Part shown: piece after piece, positions 9,939 through 14,450 of the stretch
Layout of the letters: the number at the start of each line of letters is the position of its first letter
How positions within the stretch are numbered: position 1 is the stretch's first letter
Assembly: GCA_019359395.1 (NCBI GenBank)
Contig: JAHHHK010000013.1
Location: 1-64,000, forward strand
DNA: 64,000 nucleotides
Reading direction: 5' to 3'
Source of the DNA: Komarekiella atlantica HA4396-MV6
GTDB lineage: Bacteria; Cyanobacteriota; Cyanobacteriia; Cyanobacteriales; Nostocaceae
Program-made: the position numbers and the translations under genes
Notes under the pieces: generated by a model
What the model was told of the DNA's origin: nothing
Databases searched by the model: none
What the model saw: the letters and a program-made list of their open reading frames with translations, nothing else

Positions 9939-11129
9939 ATGAGAGCGCCATTTTTAGGAAAAAATAAAATTTTATCCCATTTATATATTGCATTTTGCTG
10001 TATTTTGTGGACTAGTTTGGTTTTATTCTTGCCAGTACATGCAACACCCACAGGATCAATTGACACCTTACGCCAACAGCAGCAGCAAATGAACCAGCAG
10101 CGTCAGAGTGTAGTTAAAGAACGCGATCGCTTAACCAATCTGCAACACGACGCCCAAAATCATCTCACTGGTTTAAAGCAAAATGTACAAACTACAAACA
10201 GCTACATTCAAAACAGTGAATTGCAATTACGACTTGCTAACCAACGCCTCCAGCAATTAGAAACTGATTTAGTTGCGGCGCAGAGTTCTTATGAGGAACG
10301 TCAGATAGCTACAGTAGCACGATTGCGATATCTCCAGCGATCGCCGGCATCTATGGGATGGGCAGTTTTGCTCCAAAGTCAAACTGTCAGTGACTTTATC
10401 AGCCGCCGTCATCAGTTGAAATTAGTTTATCAGGCAGACCAGCAAATTTTGGCAAAACTCAACGAGCAAGCAAACCTGATCAATAAACAAAAAACGGACG
10501 TAGAACACCAAAAAAACGAAATTGCCTTGATTCGGGAGCAATTACTAGCACAAAAAGCCGACTATCAAATGCAAGCGCAGTCACAGTCAGAATTGATTCA
10601 ACGACTAAATAGCGATCGCCTTGCCTTAGAAGCAGCACAGAACCAGCTAGATAAAGATTCCCAAAATTTGGAAGTCTTAATTCAACAAAAGGTAGCAGCA
10701 GCACAAGCAAAGACAAACAGCCGTACAAGCGTGATCATTCGGGGAACTGGTGTAATGGCATATCCCAGCAACGCATCAACTAGTAGTCCCTTCGGTTGGC
10801 GGATACACCCGGTTCTTGGCTATCGCCGCTTTCATTCAGGGCTAGATTTTGCCGCTAGCTATGGTAGTACAATTCGGGCAGCCGATTCAGGAACAGTGAT
10901 TTTTGCCGGGTGGTATGGTGGCTATGGCAGAGCGATAATTATCAACCACGGCAAAGGCATTACTACACTGTATGGGCACTCCAGCGAGTTGTATGTTTCC
11001 GAAGGGCAAACAGTGGAAAGAGGACAAGCGATCGCTGCTGTCGGTTCTACAGGTTTATCGACTGGCCCCCACCTCCACTTTGAAGTTCGCCGTGATGGCA
11101 CACCCGTAAACCCTGCCGATTATCTGTAG
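9939..11129 (+). CDS. Murein hydrolase activator-like M23 peptidase (EnvC/NlpD type)
   Basis: The protein has 396 residues. Residues about 12-36 form a signal peptide ending near VHATP. A long coiled coil rich in Gln fills about 45-265. The C-terminal LytM/M23 domain (about 285-396) keeps the metal ligands His299 and Asp303 in RFHSGLDFA and His378 and His380 in GPHLHFEV. A coiled coil plus LytM domain is the EnvC layout. E. coli EnvC has lost zinc ligands and only activates amidases, but here the ligands are present, so direct endopeptidase activity is possible. It should act in the periplasm on septal peptidoglycan. Confidence 0.9.
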   Translation: MRAPFLGKNKILSHLYIAFCCILWTSLVLFLPVHATPTGSIDTLRQQQQQMNQQRQSVVKERDRLTNLQHDAQNHLTGLKQNVQTTNSYIQNSELQLRLANQRLQQLETDLVAAQSSYEERQIATVARLRYLQRSPASMGWAVLLQSQTVSDFISRRHQLKLVYQADQQILAKLNEQANLINKQKTDVEHQKNEIALIREQLLAQKADYQMQAQSQSELIQRLNSDRLALEAAQNQLDKDSQNLEVLIQQKVAAAQAKTNSRTSVIIRGTGVMAYPSNASTSSPFGWRIHPVLGYRRFHSGLDFAASYGSTIRAADSGTVIFAGWYGGYGRAIIINHGKGITTLYGHSSELYVSEGQTVERGQAIAAVGSTGLSTGPHLHFEVRRDGTPVNPADYL

Positions 11130-11162
11130 CGCAAAAAAGTGTGTTATAATCAAGCGGGATAA

Positions 11163-11235
11163 GGGCGCGTAGCTCAGTGGATAGAGCAACAGATTCCGGT
11201 TCTGTGGGTCGGGGGTTCAAATCCCTCCGCGCTCG
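11163..11235 (+). tRNA. tRNA-Arg (anticodon CCG)
   Basis: The 73-base sequence folds as a cloverleaf. The acceptor stem is GGGCGCG with CGCGCTC, including one G-T pair. The D arm is AGCTCAGTGGATAGAGC, the anticodon stem ACAGA/TCTGT holds the loop TTCCGGT, and the T arm contains GGTTCAAATC. The anticodon CCG reads CGG. CCA is not encoded. A T-run directly follows. Confidence 0.95.
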
Positions 11236-11367
11236 TTTTTTATAAAATCACCAGATTAGCTTATTCAGGGTTCACAACCGATGTGTGAAAGCTCGCAAAT
11301 TTAAGCGATCGTTCCGGTTACAGGCTAGACTTCATACATAATTTGTATTGGGCCTTAAAAGAATTAA

Positions 11368-11402
11368 TAAAAAATGTGCAAATAGTTATATCTATTTGCA
11401 CA
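11368..11402 (-). terminator. Rho-independent terminator after the peptide gene at 11437
   Basis: TGTGCAAATAG (11375-11385) pairs perfectly with CTATTTGCACA (11392-11402) around a 6-base loop. On the minus strand the stem is followed by TTTTTTATT. It lies 35 bp beyond the stop of the small gene at 11437-11703. Confidence 0.8.
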
Positions 11403-11436
11403 TCTCTATAAAAGCCAGTTAGTAATTGGCAAATAA

Positions 11437-11703
11437 TTAGACCATCCAAAGAATCAAATTGATAGTCAATCTGGAAAAGTCAAGAGTGAACATATTGTTG
11501 TCATATATACCAAAAGGGCCATTAGATGTAGATGAAGTGTTGTTTATTCCATCATGAATAGTAGTTAATTCAAGTTCTGAATTACCACCCCACAGATACG
11601 GAAAACAACTATCCAATGTGGCATCTATTGGTGCTGAAATTAGGTAATGCAAAAACGGCTTTGCATCAACAGGATGTAAGTCGGAAATTGCTATTTTAGC
11701 CAT
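11437..11703 (-). CDS. Small Gly-Gly-motif peptide, diverged family member
   Basis: The 88-residue product begins MAKIAISDLHPVDAKPFLHY and shares with its three neighbours the MAKI.ISD opening, the block TTIHDGIN and a later DNN. The Gly-Gly pair is at about residues 40-41, in YLWGGNSE, later than in the neighbours. The C-terminus differs sharply: instead of the shared DNSDQVYI.A it ends hydrophobic (LTINLILWMV). It lies about 260 bp after the three-gene run and has its own downstream terminator. It may be a relic or a variant with a separate role. Function is unknown. Confidence 0.7.
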   Translation of the reverse strand: MAKIAISDLHPVDAKPFLHYLISAPIDATLDSCFPYLWGGNSELELTTIHDGINNTSSTSNGPFGIYDNNMFTLDFSRLTINLILWMV

Positions 11704-11965
11704 TGTCTTAACTTTTAGGTCAGGTTATGAGCAGCGCTGCTACTTTAGTGGAGTGAAATTGCCGACAAATAAGCTGAAAAAATTAAGTGATTCGCCCTGA
11801 ATCATTAAAATGATGTCTGATGAAAATCTGCTTCCAAAGTTCTGAGTACTAGAAGCACGACACTCAAACTTTTCTCGTATTAACTAATTTAGATTTAGAA
11901 TTGACCCTTACACTAAAAAATTTAGTTAATTTGTACTTGTTAAGCTTGAGGCATTTCATCCTTCA

Positions 11966-12220
11966 TCATTTCTTCAAACCCCAATAAGGATAAGCCCAAA
12001 TGTATACTTGGTCAGAATTGTCTATCGATTTATAGTTATTATCGTGGGTGCTGTATGAACCAAAAGTTTGCTTTTCTACACGATTTATGCCGTCATGAAT
12101 AGTCATGATTTCAGCATAAAGATAACCACCCAATATGGTTTCTACTTGTGCTAAAGCTAAATCATGCAGAAATGTTTTTGTAGCACCAGAATTGAAGTCA
12201 GAAATTAGTATTTTAGCCAT
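11966..12220 (-). CDS. Small Gly-Gly-motif peptide, family copy 3
   Basis: The 84-residue product starts at the ATG at 12220 (MAKILISDFNSG), two bases after the stop of copy 2. A TTG start at 12232 is possible but overlaps the previous gene. The leader-like part runs to ETILGG, and the remainder has MTIHDGINRVEKQTFG, HDNN and DNSDQVYIWA, then an extra tail YPYWGLKK absent from copies 1 and 2. There is no hydrophobic signal peptide. The layout resembles peptides with a double-glycine leader that C39-peptidase transporters process, but no such transporter is nearby. Function is unknown. Confidence 0.75.
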   Translation of the reverse strand: MAKILISDFNSGATKTFLHDLALAQVETILGGYLYAEIMTIHDGINRVEKQTFGSYSTHDNNYKSIDNSDQVYIWAYPYWGLKK

Positions 12221-12222
12221 GA

Positions 12223-12453
12223 TTATGCCCAAATGTAAACTTGATCGGAATTGTCTGTCGAACTGTAGTTGTTATCGTGGTCACTACCTATACCAAAAAT
12301 TTGATATTCTGTCCGATTTATGCCGTCATGAATACTCAATATACGAGCATAAGGATAACCACCTGAAACAGTCTTTACTTGCGCTGGAGCCAAATCATTT
12401 AAAAATGTTTCTAGCTCACTAAAATGAAAATCAGAAATCAGTATTTTAGCCAT
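12223..12453 (-). CDS. Small Gly-Gly-motif peptide, family copy 2
   Basis: The product has 76 residues (MAKILISDFHFSELETFLND). The leader-like first 33 residues end in VKTVSGG, and the following segment is YPYARILSIHDGINRTEYQ, then HDNNYSSTDNSDQVYIWA. It starts two bases after the stop of copy 1 and ends two bases before the start of copy 3 (pattern TAA-TC-ATG both times), so the three are one transcription and translation unit. The segment after Gly-Gly is rich in Asn, Asp, Ser and Tyr and carries no Cys. Confidence 0.8.
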   Translation of the reverse strand: MAKILISDFHFSELETFLNDLAPAQVKTVSGGYPYARILSIHDGINRTEYQIFGIGSDHDNNYSSTDNSDQVYIWA

Positions 12454-12455
12454 GA

Positions 12456-12686
12456 TTATGCCCGAATATAAACTTGATCGGAATTGTCTATAGAGTCATA
12501 ATTATTATCATGATTGCTGAATGAACCGAACAATTGAGATTCTGTACGGTTTATGCCGTCATGAATGGTCAATATACGAGCATAAGGGAAACCACCTAAT
12601 ACATTATCTGTTTGTGCTGGAGCTAGATTATGCAGAAATGTCTCTGCATCACTAAACTTAAAATCAAAAACTAGTATTTTAGCCAT
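12456..12686 (-). CDS. Small Gly-Gly-motif peptide, family copy 1
   Basis: The product has 76 residues from the ATG at 12686, preceded by AAGTAAGGTA, which contains a usable ribosome site. A TTG start at 12713 would add nine residues not shared by the other copies. The sequence runs MAKILVFDFKFSDAETFLHN, then DNVLGG, then FPYARILTIHDGINRTESQ and DNSDQVYIRA. It is the first gene of the three-gene run. Copies 1 and 2 are the most alike. No modifying enzyme, protease or exporter gene is adjacent. Confidence 0.8.
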   Translation of the reverse strand: MAKILVFDFKFSDAETFLHNLAPAQTDNVLGGFPYARILTIHDGINRTESQLFGSFSNHDNNYDSIDNSDQVYIRA

Positions 12687-12713
12687 TACCTTACTTGCGG
12701 AGTCATTAGCCAA

Positions 12714-13057
12714 TTTAACTCTTAAATTCTACTTTATTAGTCTAAACCCTAGGAGCTTATATATTAAGTTTTTGTATAATAATCCATATTTTATAGACAT
12801 AATTAAATGATTTGTGTCTTTGACAAAAGATATTTTTTCTAGTAATTATTGCCTGAGTTTTTGTCTAAAAAGTACACTTGAATAAATCTCTTGCAGAAGT
12901 ACCCAATGGTTTATCAGAGAGTAGCTACTGACTGAGCGCAATAATCAGGAATCTTTTGGATGAGGGTTAATCGACAGAAAGTAGTATACTTTTCTCGGCT
13001 CTCATATTGCCTATCTAAAGATTTCGTCTACAAACCAAGAATTTTAGGATTGCTCTA
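12714..13057. other. AT-rich intergenic region with likely divergent promoters
   Basis: It lies between the minus-strand peptide operon and the plus-strand cyclic-nucleotide-binding gene, so it should hold promoters for both. No repeat element, operator palindrome or RNA gene was recognised. Confidence 0.4.
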
Positions 13058-13426
13058 ATGTTAAGTCCTGTAGTAACAGTCAGTATCTTTCAAAAACAAC
13101 CCAACCCTCAAGTATTTTCAGCAGGTCAAATCATCTTTGAAGAGGGACAGCCTGGTAATTTCATGTACGGCATCCTGGAAGGAGAAGTCGATATATTAGT
13201 CAACAGTAAAGTTGTAGAGACAATTGAGACAGGCGAAGTTTTTGGTGTTGGGGTACTTGTAGGGGTAAAAAATAGAACTTATACAGCTATTGCCAAGACA
13301 GAATGTAAACTTGCCTTTTTAGATGAGCAAGGGTTTCTGTTTGCCGTTCAAGAAACCCCCGTGTTTTCCATAAAGGTGATGAAAAGCTATTCAGAACGCT
13401 TGAGTCGCGTGGAGCACATGCTTTAG
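13058..13426 (+). CDS. Single-domain cyclic-nucleotide-binding protein
   Basis: The protein has 122 residues and consists of one cyclic-nucleotide-binding (Crp-like) beta-barrel: FSAGQIIFEEGQPGNFMYGI, then LEGEVDILV, then ETGEVFGVGVL. There is no helix-turn-helix, channel or kinase part, so it cannot act as a Crp-type DNA regulator alone. The phosphate-binding cassette normally reads G-E-x-x-x-x-R-x-A; here it is GVKNRTYTAIA, lacking a clear Glu, so nucleotide binding is uncertain. Its helical tail MKSYSERLSRVEHML could mediate dimerisation. Similar stand-alone domains are common in filamentous cyanobacteria. Confidence 0.85.
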   Translation: MLSPVVTVSIFQKQPNPQVFSAGQIIFEEGQPGNFMYGILEGEVDILVNSKVVETIETGEVFGVGVLVGVKNRTYTAIAKTECKLAFLDEQGFLFAVQETPVFSIKVMKSYSERLSRVEHML

Positions 13427-13460
13427 AGCACTCAAGTCAGCAGAACCAAGATTAATCAGA

Positions 13461-13500
13461 ACAATGAAGCTCAGCATAACGCTGGTCTTCATTGTTTTGT
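13461..13500 (+). terminator. Terminator after the cyclic-nucleotide-binding gene
   Basis: ACAATGAAG (13461-13469) pairs with CTTCATTGT (13487-13495), and an inner stem CAGC/GCTG extends it. TTTTGT follows. Confidence 0.7.
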
Positions 13501-13595
13501 AGCTCATACTTTTTCAAGCTAGACATAGCCCGCTTTATCTATTCCTAGAACCTGCCTGTACAATTAAATATGAAAACTCAAGGCTTTCGGGCGCT

Positions 13596-14450
13596 GTGAA
13601 ATTTTTTATTGGTTGTGCTGTTTGGGCATATAAAGGTTGGGTGGGTGAACTCTATCCCCAAGGAACTCGTACTACTGACTTTCTGCATCTTTACAGCCGT
13701 CGCTTCACTACTGTAGAGGGTAATACTACCTTCTATGCTGTGCCTAATCAAGATACTGTCACCCGTTGGGCTGCTGAAACACCACCAGGCTTTGAATTTT
13801 GCTTGAAATTACCACGAGATATTACCCATCAAGGGTTACTGCAACCGTATATCCCTGCTGCTTTAAAATTTTTAGAGAGGATGCGTCCTTTAGGAAAGCA
13901 TCTTGGGCCGATATTTGCCCAGTTACCACCCAGTTATGCACCTGGATTGCTGGATGATTTAACTACCTTTTTAGAAGCTTGGCCGCGCACAAACACACCT
14001 CTAGCGCTAGAAGTTCGACATCCTGACTGGTTCAGGGAACCCCATGCTAGTAGTTTGAATGCCGTATTAGAAAAGCTAGGCGTAGGGCGAGTGCTGTTAG
14101 ACTCGCGCCCTATCTACACCGGAGATGATGACCCCCAGTTACAATCAGAAAGACGCAAACCCAAACTACCATTACAATTCAGTGTAACAGCACCTTTCAG
14201 CCTAATTCGGTTTATTTCTCATCCGAATTTGCCAGTGAATCAACCTTTTATGGAAGAGTGGGTGACGCAGATTCGGCAGTGGTTGCAAGCGGGAGTGCGA
14301 ATTTACTTCTTTGTTCATTGTCCCATAGAGGAGCGATCGCCCAGCACAGCGCGTTACTTCCAACAGCTGTTAGAACAGAGTGATGTAGCAGTTCCGCTTC
14401 TGCCTTGGAATCACCTTGAGCATCCTCCCAATCAGCTAAGTTTATGGTGA
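13596..14450 (+). CDS. DUF72 (YecE-like) protein
   Basis: The protein has 284 residues, the normal length for DUF72, and starts with GTG at 13596. The TIM-barrel-like family shows in IGCAVWAYKGWVGELYP, in FTTVEGNTTFYAVP with its Glu-Gly-Asn-Thr-Thr-Phe-Tyr block, in GFEFCLKLPRDITH, and in PLALEVRHPDWF. The biochemical function of the family is not established. It is transcribed toward psbC and ends about 50 bp before the psbC terminator. Confidence 0.9.
   Translation: MKFFIGCAVWAYKGWVGELYPQGTRTTDFLHLYSRRFTTVEGNTTFYAVPNQDTVTRWAAETPPGFEFCLKLPRDITHQGLLQPYIPAALKFLERMRPLGKHLGPIFAQLPPSYAPGLLDDLTTFLEAWPRTNTPLALEVRHPDWFREPHASSLNAVLEKLGVGRVLLDSRPIYTGDDDPQLQSERRKPKLPLQFSVTAPFSLIRFISHPNLPVNQPFMEEWVTQIRQWLQAGVRIYFFVHCPIEERSPSTARYFQQLLEQSDVAVPLLPWNHLEHPPNQLSLW

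Follow-up and report, generated by a model that had tools for sequence, protein, structure and literature searches.

Four small genes in tandem, each encoding a peptide with a Gly-Gly motif and standing apart from any exporter gene, raise the question of whether they encode precursors of exported peptides and, if so, which exporter they would use. The genes lie in the first 64,000 nt of contig JAHHHK010000013.1 of Komarekiella atlantica HA4396-MV6, the stretch analysed here and hereafter called the window. A preliminary description of the locus had read the N-terminal part of the peptides as a leader ending in Gly-Gly and the remainder as a possible exported core. Our comparisons suggest that the four genes, named A to D, very probably encode precursors with such a leader. 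For the explanation taken as a whole, we consider it probable that they form a dispersed, co-regulated set of precursors of exported peptides, the leader of which would be cut by an exporter encoded in another cluster of the same genome, termed C24.

The four genes and their relatives

The ORF listing and the translation of the window placed all four genes on the minus strand. Gene A (12456..12686, 76 aa), gene B (12223..12453, 76 aa) and gene C (11966..12220, 84 aa) carry what we call a type 1 core, and gene D (11437..11703, 88 aa) carries a type 2 core with the hydrophobic end that had been pointed out for the fourth copy. B starts 2 bp past A and C 2 bp past B, as described before, but the gap between C and D measures 262 bp and not 260. 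Identity to A amounts to 72% for B, 67% for C and, over A residues 1-69, 48% for D; because of these identities, the repeat is regarded as homology and not chance. A to C have in common the leader MAKIL(I/V)(S/F)DF....FL..LA.AQ.....GG, with the Gly-Gly at residues 31-32 (in A, MAKILV...VLGG at 1-32 is followed by a core of residues 33-76), and the core motifs IHDGIN, HDNN and DNSDQVYI. D has the start and IHDGIN in common with them, so that IHDGIN does occur in all four, but the HDNN once ascribed to every copy reads YDNN in D. Likewise, the absence of Cys holds for A to C, and D has a single Cys at residue 33, before its Gly-Gly. At the canonical Gly-Gly position D reads DS; its GG at residues 39-40 lies 8 residues ahead of IHDGIN, and since this spacing equals that in A to C, the leader of D is taken to be 8 residues longer.

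A terminator-like hairpin (11370..11407, minus strand; 16 pairs, 4 of them G-C) 29 bp past the D stop is a possible transcript end, although the signal is weak, with one hairpin found against 0.7 expected in shuffles. The genes are flanked on one side by a cNMP-binding protein and a DUF72 protein, and on the other by a tRNA-Arg and an M23 peptidase. On the same side as DUF72 also lie two genes which, by their sequence, we take to be psbC and psbD. The cNMP-binding protein (13058-13426; 122 aa, PF00027) is a stand-alone cyclic-nucleotide-binding domain transcribed away from the operon, with an upstream region in common with the dyad described below; long C39 exporters have such a domain at the N-terminus. 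In the window, no gene adjoining A to D could be recognised as an exporter, a modifying enzyme or an immunity-like gene; for the last of these, a class that is hard to recognise, the stretch inspected was 9939-14450, which has the M23 peptidase, the tRNA-Arg, the cNMP protein and DUF72.

Relatives were found at E 0.01 in 73 of the 217 genomes of the family group, spread over 29 of the 56 genera; by a hand count, some 50 of these genomes have matches at E 1e-5 or better, and some of the weak matches may be leader-only. In a sample of 388 genomes of the order, 41 match at E 0.001, five of them outside the family group and weak (E 1.6e-4 to 6.4e-4). Gene A also matches five other loci of its own genome (7.78 Mb in 80 contigs), namely C72 (E 3.6e-19), C48, C9, C78 (E 0.013) and C24 (E 1.1, leader only). 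Homologs inside larger proteins, which would have spoken against processing, were absent among the matches listed for the family group and the order sample, where the open frames are short and the longest has 152 codons.

Forty stretches from 28 of the 73 genomes were then read, picked by match with their neighbours unseen, except C24, which was already known for its C39 gene. Together with the loci L010-L012 and the window, they gave 43 loci (42 distinct, L012 and L085 being one locus) and 115 distinct proteins, 6 of them leader-only and 109 with the family core as judged by eye. By pattern, 35 of the 109 have type 1 cores like HDNKI.TIDYSRS.YNW and 18 type 1 cores like those of A to C, 32 have D-like type 2 cores ending ...NKLFTIDFSRLTINL, and 10 have a third form, ...IDNSKKTYING; the patterns missed 14, several of which are type 1 by eye. 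The third form, GGYCQ...INSIDNSKKTYINGxxI, often stands as a single gene (L053, L057, L066, L069, L074, L075, L081, L082, L087 and L089, with L061 similar). A GG within residues 19-48 is present in 98 of the 109 members and absent there in 11. Two precursor types encoded together, the mark of class IIb two-peptide bacteriocins, were found at 24 of the 43 loci as type 1 plus type 2 by pattern.

Pairwise dN/dS (Nei-Gojobori type, own script) was computed for ten whole-gene pairs of a window copy and a relative, and gave 0.14-0.29 for D (five pairs), 0.24-0.27 for C (three pairs), 0.24 for B and 0.41 for A. In 8 of the ten pairs the core was more constrained than the leader, the exceptions being D versus L012e and B versus L073; among the window paralogs the core value was below the leader value in A-B and A-C and not in B-C. 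The close-relative pairs of L010 and L011, copies a and b, gave 1.04 and 1.00 on few changes. These dN/dS pairs do not show the common arrangement in which the leader stays constant and the core varies. Because relatives are widespread and the changes mostly silent, A to D are regarded as real genes.

Library searches recovered little. No NCBIfam model matched A to D at E 10, and PADLOC gave no match; the only Pfam match for any of the four, WG_beta_rep for A, lay at chance level (E 0.21) and below the cut-off. Single members matched at E 0.01-0.1 when the type 1 set was run against NCBIfam and the type 2 set against Pfam, CTB, Mersacidin and type-A lantibiotic models among them, and these were set aside. 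The type 1 profile found no solved structure below E 0.2, and the plasmid collection held no match for the two queries used. Two AlphaFold models had mean pLDDT values of 41.2 and 55.4, a low confidence that makes them uninformative on the fold across the Gly-Gly.

The leader and the exporter

Double-glycine leaders have hydrophobic residues at -4, -7, -12 and -15 and Gly-Gly at -2/-1. A to C show V or I at -4 and L at -12 and -15, while -7 is V in B and C and T in A; D fits the consensus only via its GG at 39-40. The leader also proved to be separable from the core. A type 1 profile built from 30 full-length type 1 proteins gave many matches in the order sample that end at model position 33-40, at or just past the Gly-Gly, and leader-only matches (model 1-33 to 1-55) sat on quite different cores at all 20 loci fetched, 19 of which had been chosen for an early match end. 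These proteins have the same leader and Gly-Gly, followed by a different core, for example ...FGVKTLEFMLVIAAIDAISFLTTSF or one rich in Arg, and part of a C24-type exporter is present in 9 of the 20 regions. When separate leader and core profiles (60.5 and 71.4 bits for gene A, itself part of the training alignment) were run on the ORFs around all eight C39 matches of the genome, the best leader match outside the window was a peptide of the C24 cluster (21.7 bits, full leader), followed by partial matches at C24 (14.5 bits) and near the C11 exporter (12.1 bits); the core profile, run on these ORFs and the window, matched A to D only. The sequences therefore divide into a leader of 32 residues in A to C and 40 in D, common to precursors with other cores, and a conserved core of 44-52 residues, which upholds the earlier leader and core reading as the probable one. 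In another family of the order (L118, genome G357), Gly-Gly peptides with a leader of this style occur as well, along with dyad-like sites.

If A to D were instead intracellular small proteins, with the Gly-Gly part of the fold and the leader match incidental, the lack of an adjoining exporter in the window would be expected, as would the missing GG at the usual place in D and in the 11 members mentioned above. This reading is very unlikely, since the leader occurs alone on unrelated cores with the profile match mostly ending at the Gly-Gly, relatives adjoin exporters, and the upstream dyad is common to other Gly-Gly precursors.

C39 exporters are usually encoded near their double-glycine precursors; exporters were sought in the genome and, as the preliminary description had advised, beside relatives. 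The genome has eight matches to PF03412, two of them partial or weak and none in the window. Full-length C39-peptidase ABC exporters with an adjoining HlyD gene, however, lie 1.8-3.1 kb from type 1 or type 2 genes at six of the 42 distinct loci (L058, L065, L070, L079, L083 and L086), which belong to six genera, so that the earlier observation of no export or modifying gene nearby applies to the window, while some relatives depart from it. Each of the six loci also encodes a SurA-type rotamase and an HTH protein, and in all six the peptide genes sit between the HlyD gene and the SurA-type gene. The exporter of L058 contains C39, ABC_membrane, ABC_tran and cNMP domains; Pfam was run on the exporter, HlyD and HTH copies of L058 and the rotamase of L070, and the other loci were assigned by BLAST cluster. 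The chance of six such loci was put at 2e-4 to 3e-6 by a Poisson estimate that is rough, its expectation being hand-made.

In a comparison with the genome's eight C39 proteins, all six neighbouring exporters scored best with the exporter of the C24 cluster, at 79-80% identity over the aligned part. Its lead over the C11 exporter, the sequence of which was incomplete at the locus end, is small for two of the six (1101 versus 1079 bits for L065 and 1082 versus 1048 for L079). The C24 cluster comprises the exporter, HlyD, SurA, an APH and a HopA1 protein, together with several Gly-Gly peptides that have a different core. The interval between its SurA and HlyD genes contains neither a type 1 nor a type 2 gene, and no remnant of peptides of the A to D kind was seen there. 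Because of this absence, the window operon looks like an orphan set, and use of the C24 exporter in trans is proposed. It is rather likely that the C24 exporter is the one used: its C39 domain, part of a cNMP-binding, C39 and ABC protein with HlyD adjoining, would bind the leader in trans, cut after the Gly-Gly and export the cores. The APH and HopA1 pairs are found at L055 10770-13544 and L119 794-3078, in the C24 and C11 C39 clusters, respectively.

Two other export routes were considered. For at least part of the family, a DevBCA-type exporter could take the place of a C39 exporter: genes for a DevB-type HlyD and a DevC-type FtsX permease adjoin type 1 or type 2 genes at 8 of the 42 loci, in three genera by BLAST cluster (L064, L066, L068, L069, L071, L077, L078 and L087), a DevA-type ATPase is present in 7 of the 8, and at L064, the one locus run, DevB, DevC and DevA pass the NCBIfam cut-offs. 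We hold this to be rather improbable, as these loci offer no C39 domain for leader cutting, yet the GG is kept in most members. A 215-aa protein lies near L059, L062, L064, L066, L069, L078 and L087, and its L064 copy contains sigma-70 region 2. The second route is HetC, the C39 exporter needed for heterocyst formation in heterocyst-forming cyanobacteria, the substrate of which is given as unknown in an excerpt of PMC10986499. At several of the relatives' loci a HetP-family protein is encoded within a few kb of the exporter, with the L065 copy passing the NCBIfam cut-off. HetC is described in the same excerpt without a nearby HlyD gene, however, whereas HlyD adjoins all six neighbouring exporters, and A to D would scarcely be HetC substrates.

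An upstream dyad in scattered precursor genes

A 25 bp dyad, AGACACAAATCATTTAATTATGTCT (12795..12819, minus strand), taken as a putative operator, lies in a conserved block upstream of gene A (12683..12909, minus strand) that was identified by alignment and nhmmer and is kept before relatives too. Its end is 81 bp ahead of the first in-frame start of the gene A ORF and 108 bp ahead of MAKI. The 230 bp before A are conserved in relatives, including L073, which has different neighbours, and an nhmmer profile of the upstream block found matches before paralogs on C72, C78 and C48 and, weakly, before other Gly-Gly peptides at exporter clusters. The dyad consensus is AGACATAATT-N5-AATTATGTCT, and the core shared across the upstream blocks is AGACA.AA.T-N5-A.TT.TGTCT. 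In the window the strict pattern has one site with 0 mismatches, which the other strand reads with 3, against 0.1 expected.

In the own genome, the strict pattern at up to 2 mismatches gave 10 sites against 2 for the control; five of the 10 are upstream of Gly-Gly precursors, two of these being weaker sites in the C24 cluster, and the other five have no precursor gene downstream. The symmetric pattern gave 29 sites against 6 at up to 2 mismatches, and 9 at up to 1 mismatch, of which five (C5, C48, C66, C56 and C57) were placed by eye upstream of Gly-Gly precursors and four were not. Across 208 genomes, 25 exact strict sites were found in 20 genomes and 8 genera with none for the control, a count to be read with the facts that the pattern was derived from some of the counted sites and that many genomes are closely related. 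With the N-masked L138 counted, 24 of the 25 precede a Gly-Gly precursor gene (the exception is L148), the distance being 142 bp or less for 22 of them, and at least 5 of the 25 serve precursors with other cores. Eleven of the exact sites were not used to build the pattern; 10 of these are upstream of a precursor, and many of the eleven come from close relatives of one genus.

Counted from the genes, a dyad within 2 mismatches of the symmetric pattern occurs in the 400 bp upstream of 29 of the 109 family genes and 21 of the 45 leader-only genes, against 0/109 and 0/45 in the two controls, and 36 of these 50 dyads lie at 78-139 bp. The remaining 80 of 109 members are without a dyad at this threshold, partly because operon-internal genes were counted. 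In the order sample the exact symmetric pattern occurs in 74 of 388 genomes, with a control match in one genome among the matches listed. Inspected by eye, 30 order-wide dyad loci had a Gly-Gly-type precursor downstream in 14 (including L177, the printed part of which reads GQ), an APH-like gene in 4, an HTH gene in 1 and none of these in 11. The dyad was also seen in other families of the order (L172-L198), upstream of MANITISDLRPAGADLFSDSES-type peptides and APH-like genes, and the genome G518 has 18 dyad sites.

Two other uses of the dyad were considered and set aside. Self-control of the HTH gene beside the exporter was not borne out, with 5-6 mismatches upstream of it in seven loci. An RNA hairpin is not favoured, because arm positions 6 and 9 of the window site do not pair by eye. 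The distribution of the sites argues that, with good probability, the window genes and the C24 locus belong to a common regulon, in which a dimeric regulator would bind the dyad and switch the scattered precursor genes together.

Role of the peptides and comparison with known systems

An alternative to a non-toxic role is that A to D encode precursors of bacteriocins whose Ser/Thr residues may be dehydrated by the APH and HopA1 pair of the C24 (and C11) clusters, in the manner of class V lanthipeptides. Proteins of both kinds, as in the class V dehydratase pair LanK/LanY, are found in the two clusters and in some relatives' exporter loci as well; the LxmK model matches the C24 APH protein, albeit below the cut-off (E 1.4e-21); APH and HopA1 proteins dehydrate Ser/Thr in cacaoidin biosynthesis (PMC9486802, in excerpt); and such clusters have been named bacteriocin clusters (PMC3140520, in excerpt). 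On the other hand, a core Cys, as in class V lanthipeptides, is lacking in A to C for lanthionine formation, and the Cys of D precedes its GG; of the 85 proteins that the patterns assigned to type 1 or type 2, 63 are free of Cys over their whole length. The cores are moreover conserved across genera, against the very little conservation given in the available part of the PMC3140520 survey, no immunity-like gene was recognised in the window, and the APH and HopA1 genes lie nearer to precursors with other cores, so that their link to these peptides is one of neighbourhood in relatives only. We therefore rate the bacteriocin reading as unlikely.

The most likely role is in matrix, adhesion or signalling, with the peptides acting together outside the cell, given that the cores are conserved, that the two types are frequently found at one locus and that no gene beside A to D in the window was recognised as immunity-like; the exported cores would then have a joint, conserved role. 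Whether the mature peptides are matrix or signal components rather than toxins is, on the sequences, an even call for the former. More tentatively, the palindromic operator AGACATAATT-N5-AATTATGTCT may mark scattered as well as exporter-cluster Gly-Gly precursors in several families of the order, and the two core types may represent a shared non-toxic peptide system, matrix or cell-to-cell signal, of filamentous cyanobacteria. If the peptides are such components, they would bear on biofilm building and cell patterning in filamentous cyanobacteria and on the cargo of these organisms' peptide-cutting exporters.

Gly-Gly precursors of C39 exporters are a known kind. A published description of the A to D core family or of the dyad was not found among open-licence papers, although the supplement of Wang et al. 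may list single members; a literature search for AATTATGTCT with cyanobacteria returned nothing, and the papers matching AGACATAATT were, among the matches listed, not cyanobacterial by title. The survey in PMC3140520, in the part available, looked beside exporter genes, while the A to D family lies away from them and can be found by its leader and DNA site. The dyad thus offers a handle with which to list the peptide set of a strain, find the regulator and test the pairing of exporter and peptide.

Among known systems, the NHLP, N11P and CTB-family leaders have the Gly-Gly end in common with A to D, although none of 30 type 1 proteins matched the NHLP and N11P models and only one matched the CTB-family model, at E 0.046. 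The relatives' loci resemble the group II bacteriocin-type clusters of Wang et al. 2011, which, in the excerpted text of PMC3140520, have a long C39 exporter, HlyD, SurA and often HetP: they combine a cNMP-C39-ABC exporter, HlyD and a SurA-type rotamase with, in some, a HetP-family protein. They differ from group II in that the window copies lie far from any cluster and the cores are conserved; that survey, according to the same text, screened regions around clusters. The nearest tested case, by analogy, is EbfG1-4/PteB of Synechococcus elongatus, likened here from excerpted descriptions: four small Gly-Gly proteins, cotranscribed, exported with the aid of a C39 exporter and serving biofilm formation, three of the four forming amyloid (PMC4997328, PMC9981879). 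The ebfG genes adjoin the exporter gene, whereas A to D do not; and mature EbfG proteins are described, in the part of PMC4997328 available, as without homologs in other cyanobacteria, whereas the A to D family extends over the 73 of 217 genomes given above.
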